DNA of 64,000 nucleotides, from the NCBI GenBank assembly GCA_020444545.1, contig JAHLKT010000001.1, forward strand, positions 868,001 to 932,000, written 5' to 3'. The position numbers and the translations under genes are program-made. Position 1 is the stretch's first letter, and each line of letters begins with the position of its first letter. The notes beneath the pieces are model-generated. The model did no database searches, had not been told where the DNA came from, and worked only from the letters and a program-made list of their open reading frames with translations. This stretch comes from Desulfarculaceae bacterium (GTDB taxonomy: Bacteria > Desulfobacterota > Desulfarculia > Desulfarculales > Desulfarculaceae). Shown here in pieces: positions 33,941 through 56,445 of this stretch.

Positions 33941-35011
33941 ATGTCTCTTAAGAAAAAGATCATGACCCTTGGGGTGTGCGGGATGGCCCTGGCCGCCGTT
34001 CTGCTGATGGTTCCCGGGGGCGCCGCCGCCGAGGACGAGGTCATCAAGATGACCATGGCTCACGCCGACGTGGCCGACCCCACCCAGTACGTGCACGCGG
34101 GCGCGGTGGCTTTCAAGGAGTACGTGGAGAAGGCCTCCAACGGCAAGATCCAGGTGACCATCAGCGCGGGCGGCGCCTTGGGCAACACCGCCTCGCTGCA
34201 AGAGATGACCATGACCGGCGAGGTGGAGGCTTCCACCTCCCACACCGAAGGCACCATCGCCATCATCTATCCCAACATCCAGTGCCTCTCCGTCCCGTAT
34301 CTGTTCCAGAACGTGGACCAGGCCCTGGAGGTCTTCCGGGGTGATTTCGGCCAGGCGCTGTTCGAGGACATGCGCAAGCAGACCGGCATCCGGGTGATCG
34401 GCATCTGGGACAACGGCGGCTTCCGCAACTTCACCAACAACAAGCGCGAGGTGCGCTCGCCCAAGGACATGAAGGGCCTGACCATCCGCACCATGGACAA
34501 CCCGGCTCACATGGAGATCGTGCGCTCTCTGGGCGCCAAGCCCATCCCCATCTCCTGGGCCGAGCTCTACACCGCCTTGCAGACCGGCGTGGTGGACGGC
34601 GAGGAAAACTCCATCCCCACCTTCCTTTTGGGTTCCCTGCAAGAGGTGCAGAAGTATATGGTTATGGACGGTCACGTCTACAGCCAGCTGCACATGTTCG
34701 TCAACGACAAGTGGTTCAACGGCCTGCCCAAGAAGTATCAGGAGATCATCCTGCAGGGCGGCCAGGCGGCGGGTTACGCCGGCCAGCGGGCCAACCGCGT
34801 CTACCGCGACATCGGCCGCAACATCTGCATCAAGGCCGGCGTGCAGTTCTATGATCCCACCCCGGCCGAGCTGGCCGAGTTCAAGGCCCTGGCTCAGCCG
34901 CCGGTGACCAAGTTCATCCGCGAGAAGGGCGTCAAGGACCCCAAGTGGGTGGACGGCGTGCTCAAGGCCTCCGACGAGGCTCTGGTCAAGTTGGGCTACA
35001 AGAAGAAGTAA
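33941..35011 (+). CDS. dctP: TRAP transporter substrate-binding protein DctP
   Basis: The 356-aa protein has a signal peptide (MSLKKKIMTLGVCGMALAAV, cleavage near AAA-EDE) and an excellent ribosome-binding site (GGGGAGGAGAAGT). Family features: MAHADVADPTQYVHAGAVAF, LPYLFQNVDQ-like VPYLFQNVDQALEVFRGD, GIWDNGGFRNFTNNKREVRS, GLTIRTMDNPAHMEIVRSLG with the carboxylate-binding Arg, and VVDGEENSIPTF. It binds an organic acid, and the adjacent oxidoreductase suggests a 2-oxoacid or a precursor. The gene follows the beta subunit by 128 bases and is separated from dctQ by a strong hairpin. Confidence 0.95.
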   Translation: MSLKKKIMTLGVCGMALAAVLLMVPGGAAAEDEVIKMTMAHADVADPTQYVHAGAVAFKEYVEKASNGKIQVTISAGGALGNTASLQEMTMTGEVEASTSHTEGTIAIIYPNIQCLSVPYLFQNVDQALEVFRGDFGQALFEDMRKQTGIRVIGIWDNGGFRNFTNNKREVRSPKDMKGLTIRTMDNPAHMEIVRSLGAKPIPISWAELYTALQTGVVDGEENSIPTFLLGSLQEVQKYMVMDGHVYSQLHMFVNDKWFNGLPKKYQEIILQGGQAAGYAGQRANRVYRDIGRNICIKAGVQFYDPTPAELAEFKALAQPPVTKFIREKGVKDPKWVDGVLKASDEALVKLGYKKK

Positions 35012-35019
35012 TTGCCTTC

Positions 35020-35058
35020 GGCCTGCCCGGCCGCCCCGCTCGGGCGGCCGGGCAGGCC
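35020..35058 (+). other. Long intercistronic hairpin after dctP
   Basis: A perfect 17-bp stem (GGCCTGCCCGGCCGCCC at 35020-35036, complement at 35042-35058, loop CGCTC) starts nine bases after the dctP stop. No T-tract follows. It is the longest stem in the window and is placed to stabilise the upstream receptor mRNA or reduce readthrough into dctQM. Confidence 0.7.
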
Positions 35059-35160
35059 CGGCTCCCAGACCTCGACCCAAGGCGGATTTAACCCGGGGCC
35101 CTCGCTTTTTTTTCACGGCTTAACTGGTTAAAGCATTCTAGGTGTTTGCCGGAGGGCGGA

Positions 35161-35703
35161 ATGAAGTTACCCCGCGTTCTTCAATTGGTGGGCTCGGTGG
35201 CCAACAAGGTGGCCGCCAACATTTCCATCACCTTTTTTTTCGCCATGACCCTGATCGTGTGGGCCCAGATCTTCTTCCGCTACGTTCTGGGCGACGGCAT
35301 CGTCTGGGCCGAGGAAATCGCCAAGTTCATGATGGTGTGGATGGCCCTTTTGGGGGCCGCGGTGGTCTATTACGAAGGCGGCCACATCGCCATCACCTTT
35401 TTCATCTCGCGGCGCCCGGGCCTGCGCTACATCCAGATGTTCCACACCTTGCTGGGCGCGGTGCTCTTCGGCCTGCTCATCTTCTACGGCATCAAATACG
35501 CCTCCTTCGGCCTGATGTCCATTTCGCCCGCCAGCGGGATCAAGCGCTTCTGGCCCTATCTGGCCATTCCGGTGGGCGGAGGGTTCCTGTTCATCCAAAG
35601 CATCATCCGCCTGCTGCAAATGGCCCTGGGTTATGACCAGGGGCTCCCGGCCGAGGAATACACCCGGGAGCAGGAACGCGCGGACAAGGAGTTGGCCCGA
35701 TGA
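35161..35703 (+). CDS. dctQ: TRAP transporter small permease DctQ
   Basis: The 180-aa protein starts at ATG 35161, preceded by GGAGGGCGGA. Four hydrophobic segments and the DctQ motif IFFRYVLGDGIVWAEEIAKF (with the MVWMALLGAAVVYYEGGHI segment) are visible. It anchors DctM and assists transport. Its stop overlaps dctM (ATGA), so the pair is translationally coupled. Confidence 0.93.
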   Translation: MKLPRVLQLVGSVANKVAANISITFFFAMTLIVWAQIFFRYVLGDGIVWAEEIAKFMMVWMALLGAAVVYYEGGHIAITFFISRRPGLRYIQMFHTLLGAVLFGLLIFYGIKYASFGLMSISPASGIKRFWPYLAIPVGGGFLFIQSIIRLLQMALGYDQGLPAEEYTREQERADKELAR

Positions 35704-36986
35704 CCGCCATAATCATGTTCAGCATCATGGTGTTCCTGCTCCTGGCCGGACTGCCCGTGGCCATCATGCTGGGGGTGGTCTCCACCGCCTGGGTGATGTC
35801 GGCCGGCAGCTCCATCCAGATGGTCGCCTCGCGCATGTACGCGGGGATCGACATGTTCGTGCTCATGGCCATCCCCTTCTTCTGCCTGGCCGGGGAGATC
35901 ATGAACCGCTGCGGCATCACCGACCGCCTGATCAAGTTCGTGGATTTTATGATCGGGCGGGTGCGGGGCGGTCTGGCCCAGGCCAACATCTACAGCAGTC
36001 TTTTGTTCGCGGGCATCACCGGCGCGGCGGTGGCCGACGTTTCGGCCCTGGGATCGATCTTCATCCCGGCCATGGAAAAGCAGGGCTACACCCGTAAGTT
36101 CTCGGCCATGATCACCGCGGCCAGCTCCATCATCGGGCCGATCATTCCGCCCAGCATCATCGTGGTGGTATACGGCGCGGTGACCGGGCTTTCGGTGGGC
36201 ACTCTTTTCGCGGCCTGCATGATTCCGGGCGTCATCGTGGGCTTGAGCATGAGCGCCTTCGTGGCGATCATCGCCCGCAAGCGCAAATTCCCCAAGATCG
36301 AGGAGCCCTTCGAGATGAAGGCCTTCGTGGTGTGCTTCAAGGACTCCATCCTGGCCCTGATCATGCCCGTGATCATCATCGGGGGCATCTTCTCCGGGGC
36401 GTTCACCCCCACCGAGGCCGCGGCGGTGGCCGTGTTCTACGCCCTGCTGGTGGGCCTGGTGGTCTACCACACCGTCACGGTGCGCAACGTGCTGCAGTCG
36501 GCCCGCAACGCCATGCGCACCTCGGCCATGCTCTTTTTCATCATCGGCTTCGCCAACATCCTGGGCTGGATCATCGCCAGGGTGCAGCTTCCCGAAACCA
36601 TCGCCAAGTTCATGCTCACCCTGAGCAGCAACCCCACCATCCTGCTGCTGTTGGTGCTGGTCCTGCTGCTGTTCGTGGGCACCTGGCTGGAGATCACCGC
36701 CAGCTGCATCATCCTGGCCCCCATCCTCTCGCCGGTCATGGTGCAGGTGGGGGTGCATCCGGTGCACTTCGCGGTGGTGATGGTGGTGGCGCTCAACGTG
36801 GGCCTGATCACCCCGCCCCTGGGGGTGGCGCTGTTCGCCGCGGTGGGCGTGGGCAAGGTGCCCTTCGAGGACCTGGTGGCCGAGCTGTGGCCCTTCTTCG
36901 CCCTGGACGTGCTGGTGCTGCTGCTCCTGGTTTTCATCCCGGAGCTTTCCCTGGCTGTCCCCAGGGCGCTGGGGTTCATACAATAG
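35700..36986 (+). CDS. dctM: TRAP transporter large permease DctM
   Basis: The 428-aa protein has about 12 membrane segments. DctM motifs include GLPVAIMLGVVSTAWV, MAIPFFCLAGEIMNRCGITD, GAAVADVSALGSIFIPAMEK, IIGPIIPPSIIVVVYGAVTG and NVGLITPPLGVALFAAVGVG. It forms the sodium-coupled transport path fed by DctP. The gene is followed at 138 bases by a protein I do not recognise. Confidence 0.95.
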   Translation: MTAIIMFSIMVFLLLAGLPVAIMLGVVSTAWVMSAGSSIQMVASRMYAGIDMFVLMAIPFFCLAGEIMNRCGITDRLIKFVDFMIGRVRGGLAQANIYSSLLFAGITGAAVADVSALGSIFIPAMEKQGYTRKFSAMITAASSIIGPIIPPSIIVVVYGAVTGLSVGTLFAACMIPGVIVGLSMSAFVAIIARKRKFPKIEEPFEMKAFVVCFKDSILALIMPVIIIGGIFSGAFTPTEAAAVAVFYALLVGLVVYHTVTVRNVLQSARNAMRTSAMLFFIIGFANILGWIIARVQLPETIAKFMLTLSSNPTILLLLVLVLLLFVGTWLEITASCIILAPILSPVMVQVGVHPVHFAVVMVVALNVGLITPPLGVALFAAVGVGKVPFEDLVAELWPFFALDVLVLLLLVFIPELSLAVPRALGFIQ

Positions 36987-37124
36987 AGTAGATTCCCCCG
37001 CGGCCAAAAGCGGCCGGGACCGGCGTACTCTCCGGCCCGGCGCGGGCCCGTGGCCCGGCTGCAAGAACGACTTAATAGACCCCACCGAACGCTTGCCAGC
37101 GCAAGCGGAAGGGAGATCCCAAGC

Positions 37125-38003
37125 ATGTTCTACCCCGTGGAAGTGCCCGGCCCCAGCCCGGACAAGAAGCAAGCCGCCGCCATGGTGGTGTTGAGCCCCT
37201 CCCAGTCCCGCCGCCTGGTGGCCAAGGGAGCGGTGGCCAGCCCCATCTTCCAGAAGGCCTACCAGGACGGCATGGTCATCATCGGCCGGGGCATCACCAA
37301 CGCCTACGTGTGCGAGGAGCTGTTCGACATCTCCATCGCCAACAAGGCCAACCAGACCGTGGGCCTGGTTTGCGACGGGGGCACCAACAACGCGCGCACT
37401 CCCCCGCCCTGCACCTGGCACGTCATCGAGAAGGGCAAGGTGCTCGAAGACGCCGACTCCAACGCCGAGGTGGCCAAGTTCCGCCAGGGCGACGTGGTGG
37501 TCAAGGGAGCCAACGCCATCGACCACACCGGCCTGACCGGCACCTACGCCTCTTCCCTGAAGTGCGGCACCATGGGCGCCATGTGGCCCTATGTCACCCC
37601 CCGGGGCGGCGAGTTCATCGTGCCGGTGAGCCTGGAGAAGATGGTGCCCTGCGTGATGACCGCGGCCCAGCACAGCGGGGTCTATCACTTCGACAAGTCC
37701 ACCGGCATGCCCGCCAAGATCGTCATGCTGCCCGAGGCCAAGGCCATCACCGAGATCGAGGCCCTGGGCATCCTGTGCGGGGTGAAGGCCTATCAAATCG
37801 GGGCCGGCGGCGTGGCGGGCTCGGAAGGCTCGGTGCACCTGGCCATCGAGGGCGACGCGGACAAGGTGGACCAGGCCTTTGAGCTCTGCGTCTCCCTGAA
37901 GGACGAGCCGCCGGTGGGCATGCCCGACGTGTACCTGATCGACGATCCGGCCGAGAAGGACTACGACGCGCGCGCCCTGCTGGAGATGGGCGGAGGGGTC
38001 TAG
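37125..38003 (+). CDS. Conserved protein of unknown function downstream of a TRAP transporter
   Basis: The 292-aa cytoplasmic protein has no signal peptide or membrane segment. The start at ATG 37125 follows GGAAGGGAGATCC. Glycine-rich and acidic motifs recur: VVLSPSQSRRLVAKGAVASP, VIIGRGITNAYVCEEL, FRQGDVVVKGANAID, GGEFIVPVSLEKM, and ITEIEALGILCGVKAYQIGA with GGVAGSEGSVHLAI. The Gly-rich loops and the S-P-S-Q-S-R-R start suggest nucleotide, phosphate or CoA binding, but I cannot name the fold. It is the last gene before a terminator in the oxidoreductase-TRAP stretch, so it may process or sense the imported acid. It is well formed and clearly coding. Confidence 0.75.
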   Translation: MFYPVEVPGPSPDKKQAAAMVVLSPSQSRRLVAKGAVASPIFQKAYQDGMVIIGRGITNAYVCEELFDISIANKANQTVGLVCDGGTNNARTPPPCTWHVIEKGKVLEDADSNAEVAKFRQGDVVVKGANAIDHTGLTGTYASSLKCGTMGAMWPYVTPRGGEFIVPVSLEKMVPCVMTAAQHSGVYHFDKSTGMPAKIVMLPEAKAITEIEALGILCGVKAYQIGAGGVAGSEGSVHLAIEGDADKVDQAFELCVSLKDEPPVGMPDVYLIDDPAEKDYDARALLEMGGGV

Positions 38004-38047: not shown

Positions 38048-38080
38048 GGCAGCCGGCCCTCGGGTCGGCTGCCTCTTTTT
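38048..38080 (+). terminator. Intrinsic terminator ending the TRAP operon
   Basis: GGCAGCCG (38048-38055) pairs with CGGCTGCC (38066-38073) through a GC-rich inner part, directly followed by TCTTTTT. It lies 45 bases past the stop of the unknown protein and isolates it from the riboswitch operon. Confidence 0.88.
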
Positions 38081-38246: not shown

Positions 38247-38275
38247 TTGACACCAACCCCGGGGTGCCCTTTAAT
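38247..38275 (+). promoter_or_regulatory. Sigma70-type promoter of the riboswitch operon
   Basis: TTGACA at 38247-38252 and TTTAAT at 38270-38275 are separated by exactly 17 bp. Initiation would fall near 38282, immediately before the aptamer P1 strand, so the 5' leader begins with the riboswitch. Confidence 0.75.
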
Positions 38276-38283
38276 GGCCCAGC

Positions 38284-38437
38284 TACCGGCGCCCATTGGG
38301 CTTAATAGGGAAGACGGTGAAAGGCCGTCACGGACCCGCCGCTGTAACCGGTGACAAAGGCCGCAGTTTTGCCACTGCCCCATAGGGCGGGAAGGCGCGG
38401 CCCGAGGACGACCCGGGAGTCAGAAGACCTGCCGGCC
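38284..38437 (+). ncRNA. Cobalamin (B12) riboswitch aptamer
   Basis: The conserved elements appear in order: TTAATAGGGAA (about 38302-38312), the GGTGAAA...CCGTCACGG arm, GACCCGCCGCTGTAACC (about 38333-38349), GCCACTGCC (38371-38379), GGGCGGGAAGGC (about 38384-38396), GACGACCCGGGAGTCAGAAG (about 38407-38426) and GACCTGCCGGCC ending the domain. The 5' strand ACCGGC can pair with the terminal GCCGG to close P1. Adenosyl- or other cobalamin binding to such RNAs normally switches off downstream expression. Here it precedes an intrinsic terminator and a three-gene operon. Confidence 0.96.
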
Positions 38438-38538
38438 AAATACGGACCCCACCAGCCGCCGCGGATTGCGGCAAGGGATGTTTCGCATCGCTCTTTGGTG
38501 GTCCGGCCTGGGGCGAAGAAGTAAACCAGGGTGCATTC

Positions 38539-38568
38539 CCCCAGCCCGTTTTGGGCTGGGGTTTTTTT
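38539..38568 (+). terminator. Riboswitch expression-platform terminator
   Basis: CCCCAGCCC (38539-38547), loop GTTTT, GGGCTGGGG (38553-38561), then seven T residues: a textbook intrinsic terminator. An upstream CTGGGG at 38508-38513 can pair with the CCCCAG at 38539-38544, giving a candidate antiterminator. Cobalamin binding would favour the terminator. Confidence 0.9.
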
Positions 38569-38607
38569 GTGGGCTTGCGCGGCTAGCGAGCAAAGACAAG
38601 GAAGCCG

Positions 38608-39498
38608 GTGATTCAACTTCGTCGGGACATATGCAAAATCCTTGCAGCCTTCGCCGTCCTGGCCGGGGCGCTTTATCCAGGCCCGTCCTGGTGCGGCCAG
38701 CCCGCCGATTCCTTGTGCCCTGCTTATATTTGTATTGCCTACGGCCCGAGGATCAAGGAAAAGGACGGCTCCCTGACCCAGCGTTTTTACATCCAGGTCC
38801 CAAACGGCTGCCTGACCGGGCCGCGCGCCAAGAAAATGAAGCTGTCGGCCTTTTACCTGTCCCGCCGCGCCAGGGCCAAGGGACCGCGCTTCGCCCGGCC
38901 GCTGGCCATCAAATACCAAGCCGGCGCGCCTTGCGTGGATATCAACACCGGCCGGTTTTCCCGCATAGAGCTCCATGTGTCCGCCACCTGCGGCAAGCGG
39001 CGCTACCGGGCGGCCACGGTCATCTTTATGTTCGGCAAATCAAAAAAGGAAACCACCAACCCCCTGCCGCCCTCGCCCGGCCTGCGGCCCCCCCAGCCCT
39101 CCATCCATCTGCGGCCCAATCGGGGGCACTACTGGATGCAGACCGGTCAAACCTTTCGTTTCGTGTATCAGGGGAGCGCCAAGGTCCCGGGCGTGGCCCG
39201 GGTCATGGAAAACCAGCGGACCGAGGGCTCCCTCGCGATCGATCCCCAGGGCGCCTTCAGCTACATTCCGCCTCACGACCCCGAGCTGGACCGCGCCGAA
39301 CCCAGCGCCTTTAAACAGACCGTGCTGCTGGTCAACGACGCCACGCCCCAGGGCATGGTCGCCTCCACCTTCACCCTGCTGCTGCACCGCTCGCGCTATG
39401 GCCGGCACCAGATGCTGCCCGGGCTGGCCCTGTTCGCCTTGGTGGGGCTTGTGGTGCTTTGCGGCGTGCTCCGCAGGAGAAGGAGGCCCTTGTTTTGA
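38608..39498 (+). CDS. Membrane-anchored periplasmic protein of unknown function under B12 riboswitch control
   Basis: The 296-aa protein starts at GTG 38608 with AAGGA five bases upstream. An N-terminal signal segment (ICKILAAFAVLAGALYPGPS) is followed by a periplasmic region. A C-terminal membrane helix (MLPGLALFALVGLVVLCGVL) and a basic cytoplasmic tail (RRRRRPLF) end the protein. The lumenal part looks beta-rich, with cysteines near the start (SLCPAYICIAYGP) and pairs that may form disulfides (PNGCLTG, APCVDIN, SATCGKR). A second beta-domain (HYWMQTGQTFRFVYQGSA, GSLAIDPQGAFSYIPPHD) follows. I do not recognise a family. First gene of the operon, it may be a periplasmic electron-transfer partner or ligand receptor for the membrane ferredoxin encoded next (inference). 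Confidence 0.75.
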   Translation: MIQLRRDICKILAAFAVLAGALYPGPSWCGQPADSLCPAYICIAYGPRIKEKDGSLTQRFYIQVPNGCLTGPRAKKMKLSAFYLSRRARAKGPRFARPLAIKYQAGAPCVDINTGRFSRIELHVSATCGKRRYRAATVIFMFGKSKKETTNPLPPSPGLRPPQPSIHLRPNRGHYWMQTGQTFRFVYQGSAKVPGVARVMENQRTEGSLAIDPQGAFSYIPPHDPELDRAEPSAFKQTVLLVNDATPQGMVASTFTLLLHRSRYGRHQMLPGLALFALVGLVVLCGVLRRRRRPLF

Positions 39499-40457
39499 CG
39501 GTCAAGGCGCTTCGTTTGATCACCCAACACACCATGTTCCTGGTGCTGACCTATGGCGGGCGCCTGGGCATCAGCCTGGGCAGCGCCTTGCCCTGCCTTT
39601 CCTGCCCCTATGTGTCCGGCTGCGGAGGCTACTGCTATCTGATGGCCCTGCAGAGCGGGGTGTGGGGCCTGGCCATGCCCCTGGGGGACATGGTCTCGGC
39701 CCAGGGCCTGGAGGCGCTTTATTACCTGGGGATCTTCGTCCTGCTGGCCGCCTTGTTCAACAAGCTCTGGTGCGGCTGGATCTGTCCCTTCGGCCTGATT
39801 CAGGACTGGCTGACCATGCTGCGCAAAAAGCTGGGCATCCGCGAGGCGCGGCTTTCCTGGCGCAACCGGGAGCGGCTCAAGCCGGTCAAGTATATCCTGC
39901 TGGCCTATCTGGTGGTGGTGCCCCTGCTGATCGCCCATGCCGGCCTTTCCGGCGATTTCGGCCTGCCGTTTTGCCAAATTTGCCCGGCCAAGCCCATCAT
40001 GCCTCTGTTCGCCGGCATCACCCACCACCTGGCCCTGGACCTAACCAACACCATCACCCTGGTGTTTTCCATTCTGTCGGTGGGCATCGCCGGGGGCATG
40101 CTGGTGGGCATGTTTTACAAGGAGCGTTTCTTCTGCATCTTCTGCCCCATGTTGATCCTGATCCACGTGCTGAAAAAAATCAGCCCCATCCGCTTTGAAA
40201 AAGAGGTCGATGGTTGCCTGGGCTGCGGCAACTGCCACCGTATGTGCCCGGTGGACATCCGGGATGTGCAGGAGCAAAAGACCAAGAAAGACGTGCTGAG
40301 CGAGGATTGCATGCTGTGCCTGACCTGCGTCGAGTCCTGCCCCCAAGACAAGGTGCTCAGACTCAAGTTTTTGCAATGGCCCCTGTTTGCCTCGTCGCGC
40401 AAATACGTGGCGCGCCATTTCCCCATGAAAAAGAGAGCTCATGCCTCAGACGAATAA
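39495..40457 (+). CDS. NapH/FixG-type membrane ferredoxin under B12 riboswitch control
   Basis: The 320-aa protein starts at TTG 39495, overlapping the previous stop by four bases, with GGAGAAGGAGG nine bases upstream. About six hydrophobic segments carry paired cysteine motifs at the membrane faces (LWCGWICPFGLIQDW, FFCIFCPMLILIHV, and an extra CLSCPYVSGCGGYC near the N-terminus). Two cytoplasmic [4Fe-4S] motifs follow (CLGCGNCHRMCP, CLTCVESCP). Such proteins pass electrons between the quinone pool or periplasm and cytoplasmic clusters. The next gene overlaps it by 17 bases and encodes a dehydratase/reductase-like protein, the likely electron acceptor. Confidence 0.87.
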   Translation: MTVKALRLITQHTMFLVLTYGGRLGISLGSALPCLSCPYVSGCGGYCYLMALQSGVWGLAMPLGDMVSAQGLEALYYLGIFVLLAALFNKLWCGWICPFGLIQDWLTMLRKKLGIREARLSWRNRERLKPVKYILLAYLVVVPLLIAHAGLSGDFGLPFCQICPAKPIMPLFAGITHHLALDLTNTITLVFSILSVGIAGGMLVGMFYKERFFCIFCPMLILIHVLKKISPIRFEKEVDGCLGCGNCHRMCPVDIRDVQEQKTKKDVLSEDCMLCLTCVESCPQDKVLRLKFLQWPLFASSRKYVARHFPMKKRAHASDE

Positions 40458-41682
40458 TCCGCCCAATCAGGCGGGGCAACACCTCTTGGATCAGGTCAGG
40501 GCCCAGGTGCTGGCCGAGCACCAGGCCCAGGCGGACGCCCTGCGCCAACGATCCGACTACATCCCGGCCCTGGATTACTTCCTCGATCTGCTGGCGCGGC
40601 CCCTGTCTTTGGAAAAGATGCGCGCCGCGATTGGCCGGCCGGTCATGGAGCAGCTGTGCAACCTGGCCCCATATGAGCTGTTTCACGCCTTTGGGGTGCA
40701 TCCCGTGCGCATGGGCTGCGGGTGCAATTCAGTGCAACGTCTGGTCGCCTCCGGCAATCCGGTGCTCATGTGCCCGGTGATGAAATCCAACCTGGGCATG
40801 CAACGGCTGCACGGCCAAGCCGGGGAAGAGGGGGCCGTCCGGGTGGTGCCCACCTCCTGCGACTGGGTGGTCAAGTACCCGGAAATGGCGCGGCAGGACG
40901 GTCGGGAGACCCATTTCCTGGAGCTGCCCCACTCGCGCCAGTCCGAAAAAGGCCAGCAACGCTGGCTGGAAGAGATATACGGCTTCGCGGCCTTGCTGGA
41001 AAAAAAGACCGGCAAGAAGCTCAAGCGGCAGCGCCTGCTGGCCTCCATCGAGGCCTTCATGCGGGCCTGGCGGGCGCTCCAGGAGCTGGCTGATCTTCGC
41101 AGGCGCCGCCTGATTCCCGGCATCTTTTTCATGGTGGTGGCCAACAGCTTTATGCTCGACGCGGTAGAGCCCTGGACCGAGCACCTGGGCCAACTGCTGG
41201 AAGAGGCAGCCTCGCGCCGGGCGGCCGCCACGGGCCGGGGCATTTTTCTGGCCGGGTCGCCCATCGCCTTTCCCAACTACAAGTTGCCCCACCTGATAGA
41301 AGAGGCGGGCATGGATGTATGCGCGGATGACCTGTGCACCTCGGAGCGGGTGTTGCCCGGCGCGGTCTGTTACGACGACCCCTCGGAGCACGGCCTGTTG
41401 CGGGCCTTGTCCGAACGCTATCACCGGGGATGCATCTGCCCCACTTTTGCCGATAATGAGCGCCGGGTGAACAGTATCCTCAACACCTGCCGGCAAAACG
41501 ATATCCAGGGCGTGGTGTACCACGTGCTCAAGGGCTGCCACCCCTGTGACATTGAAAGCGTCACCATGGGCGAAACTCTGAAGCAACACGGGTACAAGTT
41601 TCTAAGGATCGAGACGGACTTCGCCAAGGAGGACAGCCAAAACCTCCTCACCCGCTTGGAGGCCTTTGGCGAAATCCTCTGA
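40441..41682 (+). CDS. 2-hydroxyacyl-CoA dehydratase D-component-like (HgdB/BcrC-type) protein under B12 control
   Basis: The 413-aa protein has the HGD-D layout. An N-terminal helical region ends in YELFHAFGVHPVRMGCGCNS, followed by PVLMCPVMKSNLGMQ and VVPTSCDWVVKY, which supply cluster cysteines. The C-terminal half reads CICPTFADNERRVNSILNTC and VYHVLKGCHPCDIESVTMGE, ending with LRIETDFAKEDSQNLLTRLE. Known relatives hold a [4Fe-4S] cluster and use very low potential electrons from an ATP-dependent activator (HgdC-like) to reduce thioesters or break C-O bonds; others have unrelated uses. No activator and no partner subunit is encoded here. The only electron-transfer neighbour is the membrane ferredoxin. 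The substrate is unknown. Confidence 0.85.
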   Translation: MPQTNNPPNQAGQHLLDQVRAQVLAEHQAQADALRQRSDYIPALDYFLDLLARPLSLEKMRAAIGRPVMEQLCNLAPYELFHAFGVHPVRMGCGCNSVQRLVASGNPVLMCPVMKSNLGMQRLHGQAGEEGAVRVVPTSCDWVVKYPEMARQDGRETHFLELPHSRQSEKGQQRWLEEIYGFAALLEKKTGKKLKRQRLLASIEAFMRAWRALQELADLRRRRLIPGIFFMVVANSFMLDAVEPWTEHLGQLLEEAASRRAAATGRGIFLAGSPIAFPNYKLPHLIEEAGMDVCADDLCTSERVLPGAVCYDDPSEHGLLRALSERYHRGCICPTFADNERRVNSILNTCRQNDIQGVVYHVLKGCHPCDIESVTMGETLKQHGYKFLRIETDFAKEDSQNLLTRLEAFGEIL

Positions 41683-55737: not shown

Positions 55738-56445
55738 CGGGATATCTCCGCCACTGAACGATAATGTGCTTATAAGCTTTTAACATAGCACGCAACAGCA
55801 TAATTACCAAGTTAATTTATAAGCTTAGAACCAATCTGCCCATTTTTCAGCATGAGAAATTCATTTCCAAGATACGCTTTGGTGTTAAACGGCTCCCTAC
55901 GCAAAGGCGTAGCCGCTGTGTCATAACGCCATCCCCGCACAAAGCGATCAGTGCTCACGCCTTCATTTGATCCTACCCCAACCCCCTAGGGACCGTACCT
56001 CCAAGACACGGTCCCTTGATACCTGCGTTTCGGGACTCTTTACAAATGCGTCCTGGCCCATTCAACCGGGTTTATCCCAGCCTTTCCCCAAAGCATAAGG
56101 GCCCAGACATCTTGCCTAACCACTTGTAATCATTGGGTCTGAAGTGCATGGGAGCGCCTCAAACCGCTGGAGCGGGAAAACTGGAAGCTTCGGCGGGCCA
56201 GCGAGACACTACGCAAGTCATCGGCATATTTCGCCCAGGCGGAGCTCCACCGCCGACCGAAATGATGGTGTCTTTCGTATACGCCCAGTGCCAGGCTCAC
56301 GGGGTCGTGCCGATCTGCGCTGTACTGCCCATCGCCCTGTCGACCTGCTATGAGCCTTGGGGCATTTTTGCATGCCGATTCCCACGGAAGGCCGATGATC
56401 GCTGCTCATATTAGGTTAGGCGCGGGAAGCGGCTTTGGGGCTGGG
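55738..56445. other. 708-bp region without a recognised gene, with two hairpins
   Basis: The region is AT-rich up to about 55930 and GC-richer after it. Hairpins: CTACGC-AAAG-GCGTAG (55897-55912) with a GGC/GCC outer pair, and GGGACCGT...ACGGTCCC (55989-56015, 11-base loop). Open frames of up to 93 codons after 56130 overlap on both strands and have no family features. An unannotated small RNA is possible, but I see no promoter-terminator pair that would prove one. Confidence 0.4.
55766..55826. promoter_or_regulatory. Candidate GntR autoregulatory sites
   Basis: GTGCTTATAAGC (55766-55777) contains the perfect palindrome GCTTATAAGC. TTATAAGCTT recurs as a direct repeat at 55770-55779 and 55817-55826, 47 bp apart. 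The first lies 29 bp upstream of the GntR start codon. Confidence 0.5.

Follow-up and report, generated by a model that had tools for sequence, protein, structure and literature searches.

An operon of three genes that stands behind a cobalamin riboswitch in Desulfarculaceae bacterium (GenBank assembly GCA_020444545.1) appears to encode a redox module of B12 uptake and salvage. It lies in a stretch of 64,000 nucleotides of contig JAHLKT010000001.1 (positions 868,001 to 932,000; the window), and positions are given in the numbering of this window. The genes code for a periplasmic protein (P1), a membrane ferredoxin (P2) and a relative of the double-cubane cluster protein DCCP (P3), which together resemble an apparatus for electron transfer across the inner membrane. 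The module is interpreted, with moderate confidence, as induced by corrinoid scarcity and as an ATP-boosted reductase whose substrates are imported corrinoids and whose site of action is probably the periplasm. The observations behind this reading are the riboswitch, the order of the genes, their conservation alongside genes of uptake and salvage, and the conserved cysteines of the proteins. Relatives of the module in six bacterial phyla stand beside B12 uptake and salvage genes, and the device therefore probably reduces imported B12-type molecules. The operon and its leader comprise the following features.

38048-38073, + strand: intrinsic terminator of the upstream transcription unit, an 11-pair stem followed by TCTTTTT
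38247-38275, + strand: promoter-like TTGACA-17 nt-TTTAAT, read from the sequence and missed by a stricter consensus scan
38270-38451, + strand: cobalamin riboswitch aptamer RF00174, found at full length with the covariance model
38539-38568, + strand: intrinsic terminator after the aptamer, CCCCAGCCCGTTTTGGGCTGGGG followed by TTTTTTT; stem at 38539-38561 with 10 pairs, 8 of them G-C
38608-39498, + strand: P1, periplasmic partner with a signal peptide, two immunoglobulin (Ig)-like beta-sandwich domains and a transmembrane helix at the C-terminus
39495-40457, + strand: P2, NapH-like membrane ferredoxin, 16 of its cysteines near-invariant; predicted transmembrane iron-sulfur (Fe-S) electron conduit
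40441-41682, + strand: P3, DCCP-like member of the HGD-D family with six conserved cluster cysteines

The riboswitch scored 115.3 bits (E 3.4e-28) in a covariance-model search, exceeding the RF00174 gathering score of 31.5 bits, and covered model positions 1-189, the full length. The terminator behind the aptamer is presumed to be its expression platform. The TTGACA-17-TTTAAT element upstream of the riboswitch is a plausible, not proven, promoter, which went unreported by the consensus scan because of the T at position 2 of its second hexamer. The terminator at 38048-38073 sets the P1-P3 unit apart from the gene upstream. The P2 gene starts with TTG, an assignment backed by alignment, and overlaps the P1 stop by 4 nucleotides, and the P3 start overlaps P2 by 17 nucleotides. 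A first-pass annotation of this DNA had described a sigma70-type promoter, a complete B12 aptamer and an intrinsic terminator before three overlapping or near-adjacent genes. The aptamer, the terminator with its run of seven T and the gene arrangement were confirmed, and the promoter is legible in the sequence but is retained as plausible only. The genome holds seven RF00174 sites in 4.38 Mb, which makes chance placement of one of them before P1-P3 very unlikely (well under 1%).

Other cobalamin riboswitches of the window genome precede a gene for a TonB receptor, a gene for an exported BtuF-CbiZ fusion with BtuF-FecCD-ABC genes (BtuF, BtuC, BtuD), and a ThiC/BzaF-like gene with CobT. P1-P3 is thus in the same regulon as the uptake and salvage genes of this genome. 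The exported fusion is a protein of 680 amino acids (locus L068:1024-3066). The presence of riboswitch-controlled genes for the TonB receptor, the exported fusion and the others makes periplasmic corrinoid processing likely in the window organism. The module is tied to these genes by common riboswitch control only, not by adjacency, whereas both riboswitch control and physical linkage to uptake or salvage genes are present in relatives. Another of the window genome's cobalamin riboswitches is followed by two tandem copies of an unnamed family of small proteins of ~110 amino acids (L067:11448-11780 and L067:12085-12555, both on the - strand). A homologue is encoded within the riboswitch-P1-P2-P3 unit of the sister locus L038 (L038:4132-4473, + strand), and this family could be an additional component of the system.

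Neighbour lists of the module loci were based on recurrent families and Pfam matches, as a simple open reading frame caller is unreliable in GC-rich DNA. Of the loci examined, 32 have a member of the TonB-dependent receptor family, 10 have CobN and 7 have CbiZ. Further neighbours were BtuF, a BtuR-like protein, CbiK, RACo, TonB, ExbB and ExbD, and signal peptides were detected on several of the neighbouring CobN and CbiZ copies. Of the two functions offered by the first-pass annotation, reduction and salvage of cobalamin or cobalt at the membrane is supported by these corrinoid uptake and salvage neighbours and by the electron-carrier cysteines of P2 (see below). In Desulfobacterota, CbiZ occurred in 8/14 genomes with P2 versus 73/381 genomes without it (Fisher p 0.0023), a comparison that ignores kinship and is taken as a hint only.

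A P2 pattern scan of genome contigs yielded 18 loci in Desulfobacterota, Negativicutes (Sporomusa), Spirochaetota, Omnitrophota, Synergistota, Planctomycetota (Anammoxibacter) and Bathyarchaeia, and further copies of the module were taken from the class of the window organism. The distribution of the module is sparse and patchy: P2-positive genomes numbered 14/395 in Desulfobacterota, 7/250 in the class of Sporomusa and 3/345 in the Spirochaete phylum. An RF00174 site was found upstream on the same strand in 20/25 loci from the main lineage and its closest relatives, which is not an unbiased rate as some of the 25 had been picked for likeness to the P2 of the window. Twelve of these riboswitches lie within 500 nucleotides of P1, and the others precede a run of genes opening with TonB receptor, BtuF, CbiZ or NifHDK-like genes. 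The less biased scan of Desulfobacterota showed the riboswitch in 5 of the 14 positive genomes, with several of the others on short contigs. Riboswitch-linked loci of the main lineage belong to Desulfobacterota, Negativicutes, Spirochaetota, Synergistota and Planctomycetota. A sixth phylum is represented by an Omnitrophota locus outside the main lineage, in which the riboswitch precedes the adjacent receptor gene. In Sporomusa ovata (L041:1681-5072), a NifH-like gene and two genes resembling nitrogenase component 1 lie between the cobalamin riboswitch and P1-P4; these may constitute another reductase dependent on ATP, encoded in one operon with P1-P4.

The tree of P2 and P3 also contains two more distant lineages without the riboswitch, so that homologues mostly lacking it, which the first-pass annotation had named as speaking against its reading, are seen in these two lineages but not in the main one. 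One of these lineages consists of paralogues in one family of the window's class, accompanied by TonB, ExbB and DUF4198 genes. The other, the L095-L097/L129/L130 group, is accompanied by TonB genes and mostly by DsbD-like genes. The riboswitch-free copies linked to DUF4198 and TonB may act on another metal complex. Some genomes in one family of the window's class hold up to five P3-type copies (L010-L037, L107-L113).

No Pfam or NCBIfam match was found for P1. In its AlphaFold2 model (predicted local distance difference test score, pLDDT, 85.8), two beta-sandwich domains lie between an N-terminal helix compatible with a signal peptide and a transmembrane helix at the C-terminus. By this model, P1 resides in the periplasm, is anchored in the membrane and has two Ig-like domains, in agreement with the first-pass description of a membrane-anchored periplasmic protein of no known family. 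A fold search of the model against solved structures returned only generic matches of the Ig/fibronectin type III kind with low template modelling scores and named no function. The best local fold matches were CrdA and DUF4426. A transporter signature, which would have spoken for a different role, was not seen in P1; the P1 proteins of some relatives resemble DUF4198 weakly.

P2 contains Fer4_5 and dicluster ferredoxin domains (Pfam) and matched NCBIfam NapH models below their cut-offs (68.7 versus 213.05 bits and 64.9 versus 234 bits), which upholds its earlier designation as a NapH-like membrane ferredoxin. Matches in a PDB profile search were confined to the ferredoxin part. The near-invariance of the 16 cysteines was established among 50 homologues. 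Two of the loops carry on average 9.1 and 6.0 lysine and arginine residues versus 1.0 and 1.8 in the others. The structure model of P2 is of low confidence (pLDDT 64.6), and only its four helices were used. By the positive-inside rule and these helices, C93, C97, C214 and C217 together with the eight ferredoxin cysteines are predicted to lie on the cytoplasmic side, and C37, C47, C160 and C163 on the periplasmic side. The cysteine sets on the two faces point to a four-cysteine cluster site on each face and an electron path across the membrane, which suggests that P2 is a transmembrane Fe-S wire.

NapH and YccM of E. coli resemble P2 in having four predicted helices, and all twelve of its cytoplasmic-side cysteines (four at the membrane face and eight in the ferredoxin domain) align with theirs. 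Cys37, 47, 160 and 163, at the predicted periplasmic face, are present in P2 but not in these two proteins. Neither NapG nor a nitrate reductase is encoded near P2, and a nitrate or quinol function of the NapGH kind was rejected as there are no Nap genes. Mercury methylation by HgcAB was rejected likewise, the dicluster ferredoxin domain being the sole common feature. CcoG (RdxA/FixG) is a cupric reductase in which a membrane ferredoxin with a periplasmic Ig-like part reduces a metal. P1 and P2 together are similar in architecture. P2 differs in that it stops after the ferredoxin domain and has no FixG_C Pfam match, the Ig-like domains being located in the separate P1, and in that a double-cubane protein and an ATPase are added in the P1-P4 module.

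P3 matched the HGD-D family (PF06050, E 2.3e-67). Its best NCBIfam match was double_cubane (NF040772, E 3.9e-60), with 203.9 bits below the equivalog cut-off of 350, and the nearest solved structure was that of DCCP (PDB 6eno, E 1.2e-38). The earlier label HgdB-like was therefore right as to the family, but the protein is DCCP-like and not HgdB proper. Six cysteines of P3 (C73, C111, C140, C299, C333, C366) are kept in 49-50 of 50 homologues and all align with cysteines of 6eno. BzdN is the other known double-cubane protein; five of the six align with its cysteines, and the remaining one is out of register by a single residue. HadC, which has lost the second cubane (PMC11971306), has no equivalents of C299 and C333 in the alignment. 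Since all six cysteines are common to DCCP and two are absent from HadC, P3 should, judged by its cysteines, carry a double-cubane [8Fe-9S] cluster and not be a dehydratase subunit. A 2-hydroxyacyl-CoA dehydratase (HgdAB/HadBC) was also ruled out because a single HGD-D gene, with no second subunit, is present in the operon and in all relatives.

The gene order is P1-P2-P3-P4 in nearly all relatives, P4 being an ATPase of the BcrAD/HgdC type with two cysteines conserved in 51/51 sequences. The gene set of three given by the first-pass annotation is correct for the window, which has no P4, but it missed this partner in the relatives. The six cysteines of P3 and the two of P4 fit the needs of double-cubane proteins and their activators. 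The DCCP of Carboxydothermus (PDB 6ENO, 7YYL) shares with P3 its six cysteines, and with the relatives of P3 an ATPase with two conserved cysteines. It differs in that P3 is tied to a membrane Fe-S protein and a periplasmic protein under a B12 riboswitch, and in that the ATPase is gone from the window operon. Elsewhere the window genome encodes four BcrAD-type ATPases, which are generic and only 31-43% identical to P4.

The proposed mechanism starts at low adenosylcobalamin, when the riboswitch would allow read-through of the terminator and P1-P2-P3 would be made. An HgdC-type ATPase, P4 in the relatives and in the window genome probably one borrowed from the four BcrAD-type enzymes, would charge the double-cubane cluster of P3 with electrons of very low potential. 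Either P3 or a ferredoxin would hand these electrons to the cytoplasmic ferredoxin domain of P2, from which they would pass via the cytoplasmic-face cluster to the periplasmic-face cluster and then to P1. P1 would present the corrinoid, the cobalt of which would be reduced towards Co(II)/Co(I), with loss of the upper ligands and formation of the base-off form. The base-off corrinoid could then be processed or imported by exported CbiZ and BtuF/BtuCD, and in other species by exported CobN. CbiZ is reported to discriminate among cobamides, and it may be speculated that the base-off form would widen its range.

Several points weigh against such a corrinoid reductase. Its substrate and direction of electron flow are inferred. 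P4 is missing from the window operon, where an aminotransferase gene comes after P3, and was not found in the 349 nucleotides that remain on the contig of the sister locus L038, so that the ATP boost must come from elsewhere or is not used. Four same-genus genomes have CbiZ but not P2, and the module is therefore not essential to CbiZ-type salvage. The riboswitch-free P2-P3-P4 lineages with DUF4198 or DsbD-like and TonB genes indicate that the core chemistry may concern other metal complexes.

The main rival reading, though unlikely, is that the same pathway runs on the opposite side of the membrane, P2 drawing on quinol or a periplasmic donor and feeding P3, which would reduce cytoplasmic corrinoids to Co(I) so that they can be adenosylated. 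In its favour, signal peptides are absent from P3 and P4, RACo adjoins the module in one Sporomusa, and NapH-type proteins are known as quinol dehydrogenases. Against it stand the periplasmic location of P1 and the frequent export of the neighbouring CbiZ and CobN; a quinol donor would be far too positive for a double-cubane cluster, and the periplasmic cysteine quartet of P2 would be left without an obvious role.

Somewhat less likely still, the module might act like CcoG and reduce or mobilize a metal (cobalt, or iron or nickel in other lineages) at the membrane in the course of TonB-dependent uptake, the corrinoid not being the direct substrate. This would agree with the weak likeness of relatives' P1 to DUF4198, a family linked to Ni/Co uptake, with the DUF4198 and TonB genes of the two riboswitch-free lineages, and with the Ig-like fold that P1 and the periplasmic part of CcoG have in common. 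The recurring partners in the main lineage are, however, corrinoid-specific (CbiZ, BtuF) and not cobalt transporters, and Co(II) uptake requires no super-reductant.

The module could also supply electrons for reductive metal removal from tetrapyrroles by exported CobN-like (BtuS/HmuS) dechelatases. CobN genes stand within the cluster, or next to it in divergent orientation, in L038, L044, L045, L052, L103 and L126-L128, and HmuS requires periplasmic reducing equivalents, the source of which was reported as unresolved (PMC13227078). This is nevertheless improbable as the general function, since most loci have no CobN; the window genome has none, so that dechelatase supply cannot be the function there. 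The HmuS/BtuS systems of Bacteroidota resemble the module in combining TonB uptake with subsequent periplasmic processing of tetrapyrroles that requires a reductant (PMC13227078, PMC6460266), and DUF2162, ExbB and CobN genes lie beside the module in L038 too; P1-P4, however, are not known from HmuS systems. Chemical reduction of a corrinoid at uptake has a parallel in the reductive decyanation by BtuM (PMC6072759), which differs in being one small membrane protein that uses a cysteine and has no Fe-S clusters. A B12-independent enzyme replacing a cobalamin-dependent reaction under B12 scarcity, the other function offered by the first-pass annotation, would follow the classical logic of riboswitch control of non-B12 genes, as for NrdDG in delta-proteobacteria (PMC545781), but is very improbable because no B12-dependent enzyme, isozyme or other metabolic neighbour recurs beside the module, the neighbours being transport and salvage genes, and because a periplasmic partner and TonB linkage are ill-suited to a metabolic isozyme.

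Upstream of the operon, positions 33941-38003 hold a transporter gene set, presumably of the tripartite ATP-independent periplasmic (TRAP) type with periplasmic, small and large membrane subunits, followed by a gene for a protein of 317 amino acids without Pfam match and with its own terminator at the end. An ALIL pseudoknot (RF01497, 80.4 bits) was found at 56223-56339, with no clear transposase frame nearby in a quick look at open reading frames. This frameshift element is usual in IS3-type transposases.

The cobalamin riboswitch, DCCP, the HgdC-type ATPase and the NapH-like protein are each of an already known kind. In the open-access literature, no description was found of their fixed combination with a periplasmic protein in B12 uptake regulons, of the extra periplasmic cysteines of P2, or of any association of cobalamin riboswitches with 2-hydroxyglutaryl-CoA dehydratase or DCCP-type proteins. 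A search for an 'ardX-frdX' B12 regulon led to an frdX that encodes a ferredoxin under HcpR control and is unrelated. Double-cubane proteins were recently stated to be of unknown function (PMC11971306, 2025).

It is tentatively proposed that P1-P4 represent an undescribed accessory class of TonB uptake, an ATP-driven transmembrane Fe-S super-reductase that would send very low-potential electrons to the periplasm for the reduction of imported metal-tetrapyrroles, the riboswitch lineage acting on corrinoids and the sister lineages on other metal complexes. If true, this would assign a physiological role to a double-cubane cluster of the DCCP type for the first time. The module may give this branch of the DCCP family a regulated physiological setting and a predicted substrate class, and it is a candidate source of periplasmic reducing power for HmuS-type tetrapyrrole dechelatases. 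It is amenable to direct testing in the cultivable Sporomusa ovata. If the corrinoid reductase reading is right, textbook B12 uptake by BtuB, BtuF and BtuCD would gain a reductive step that is paid for with ATP.

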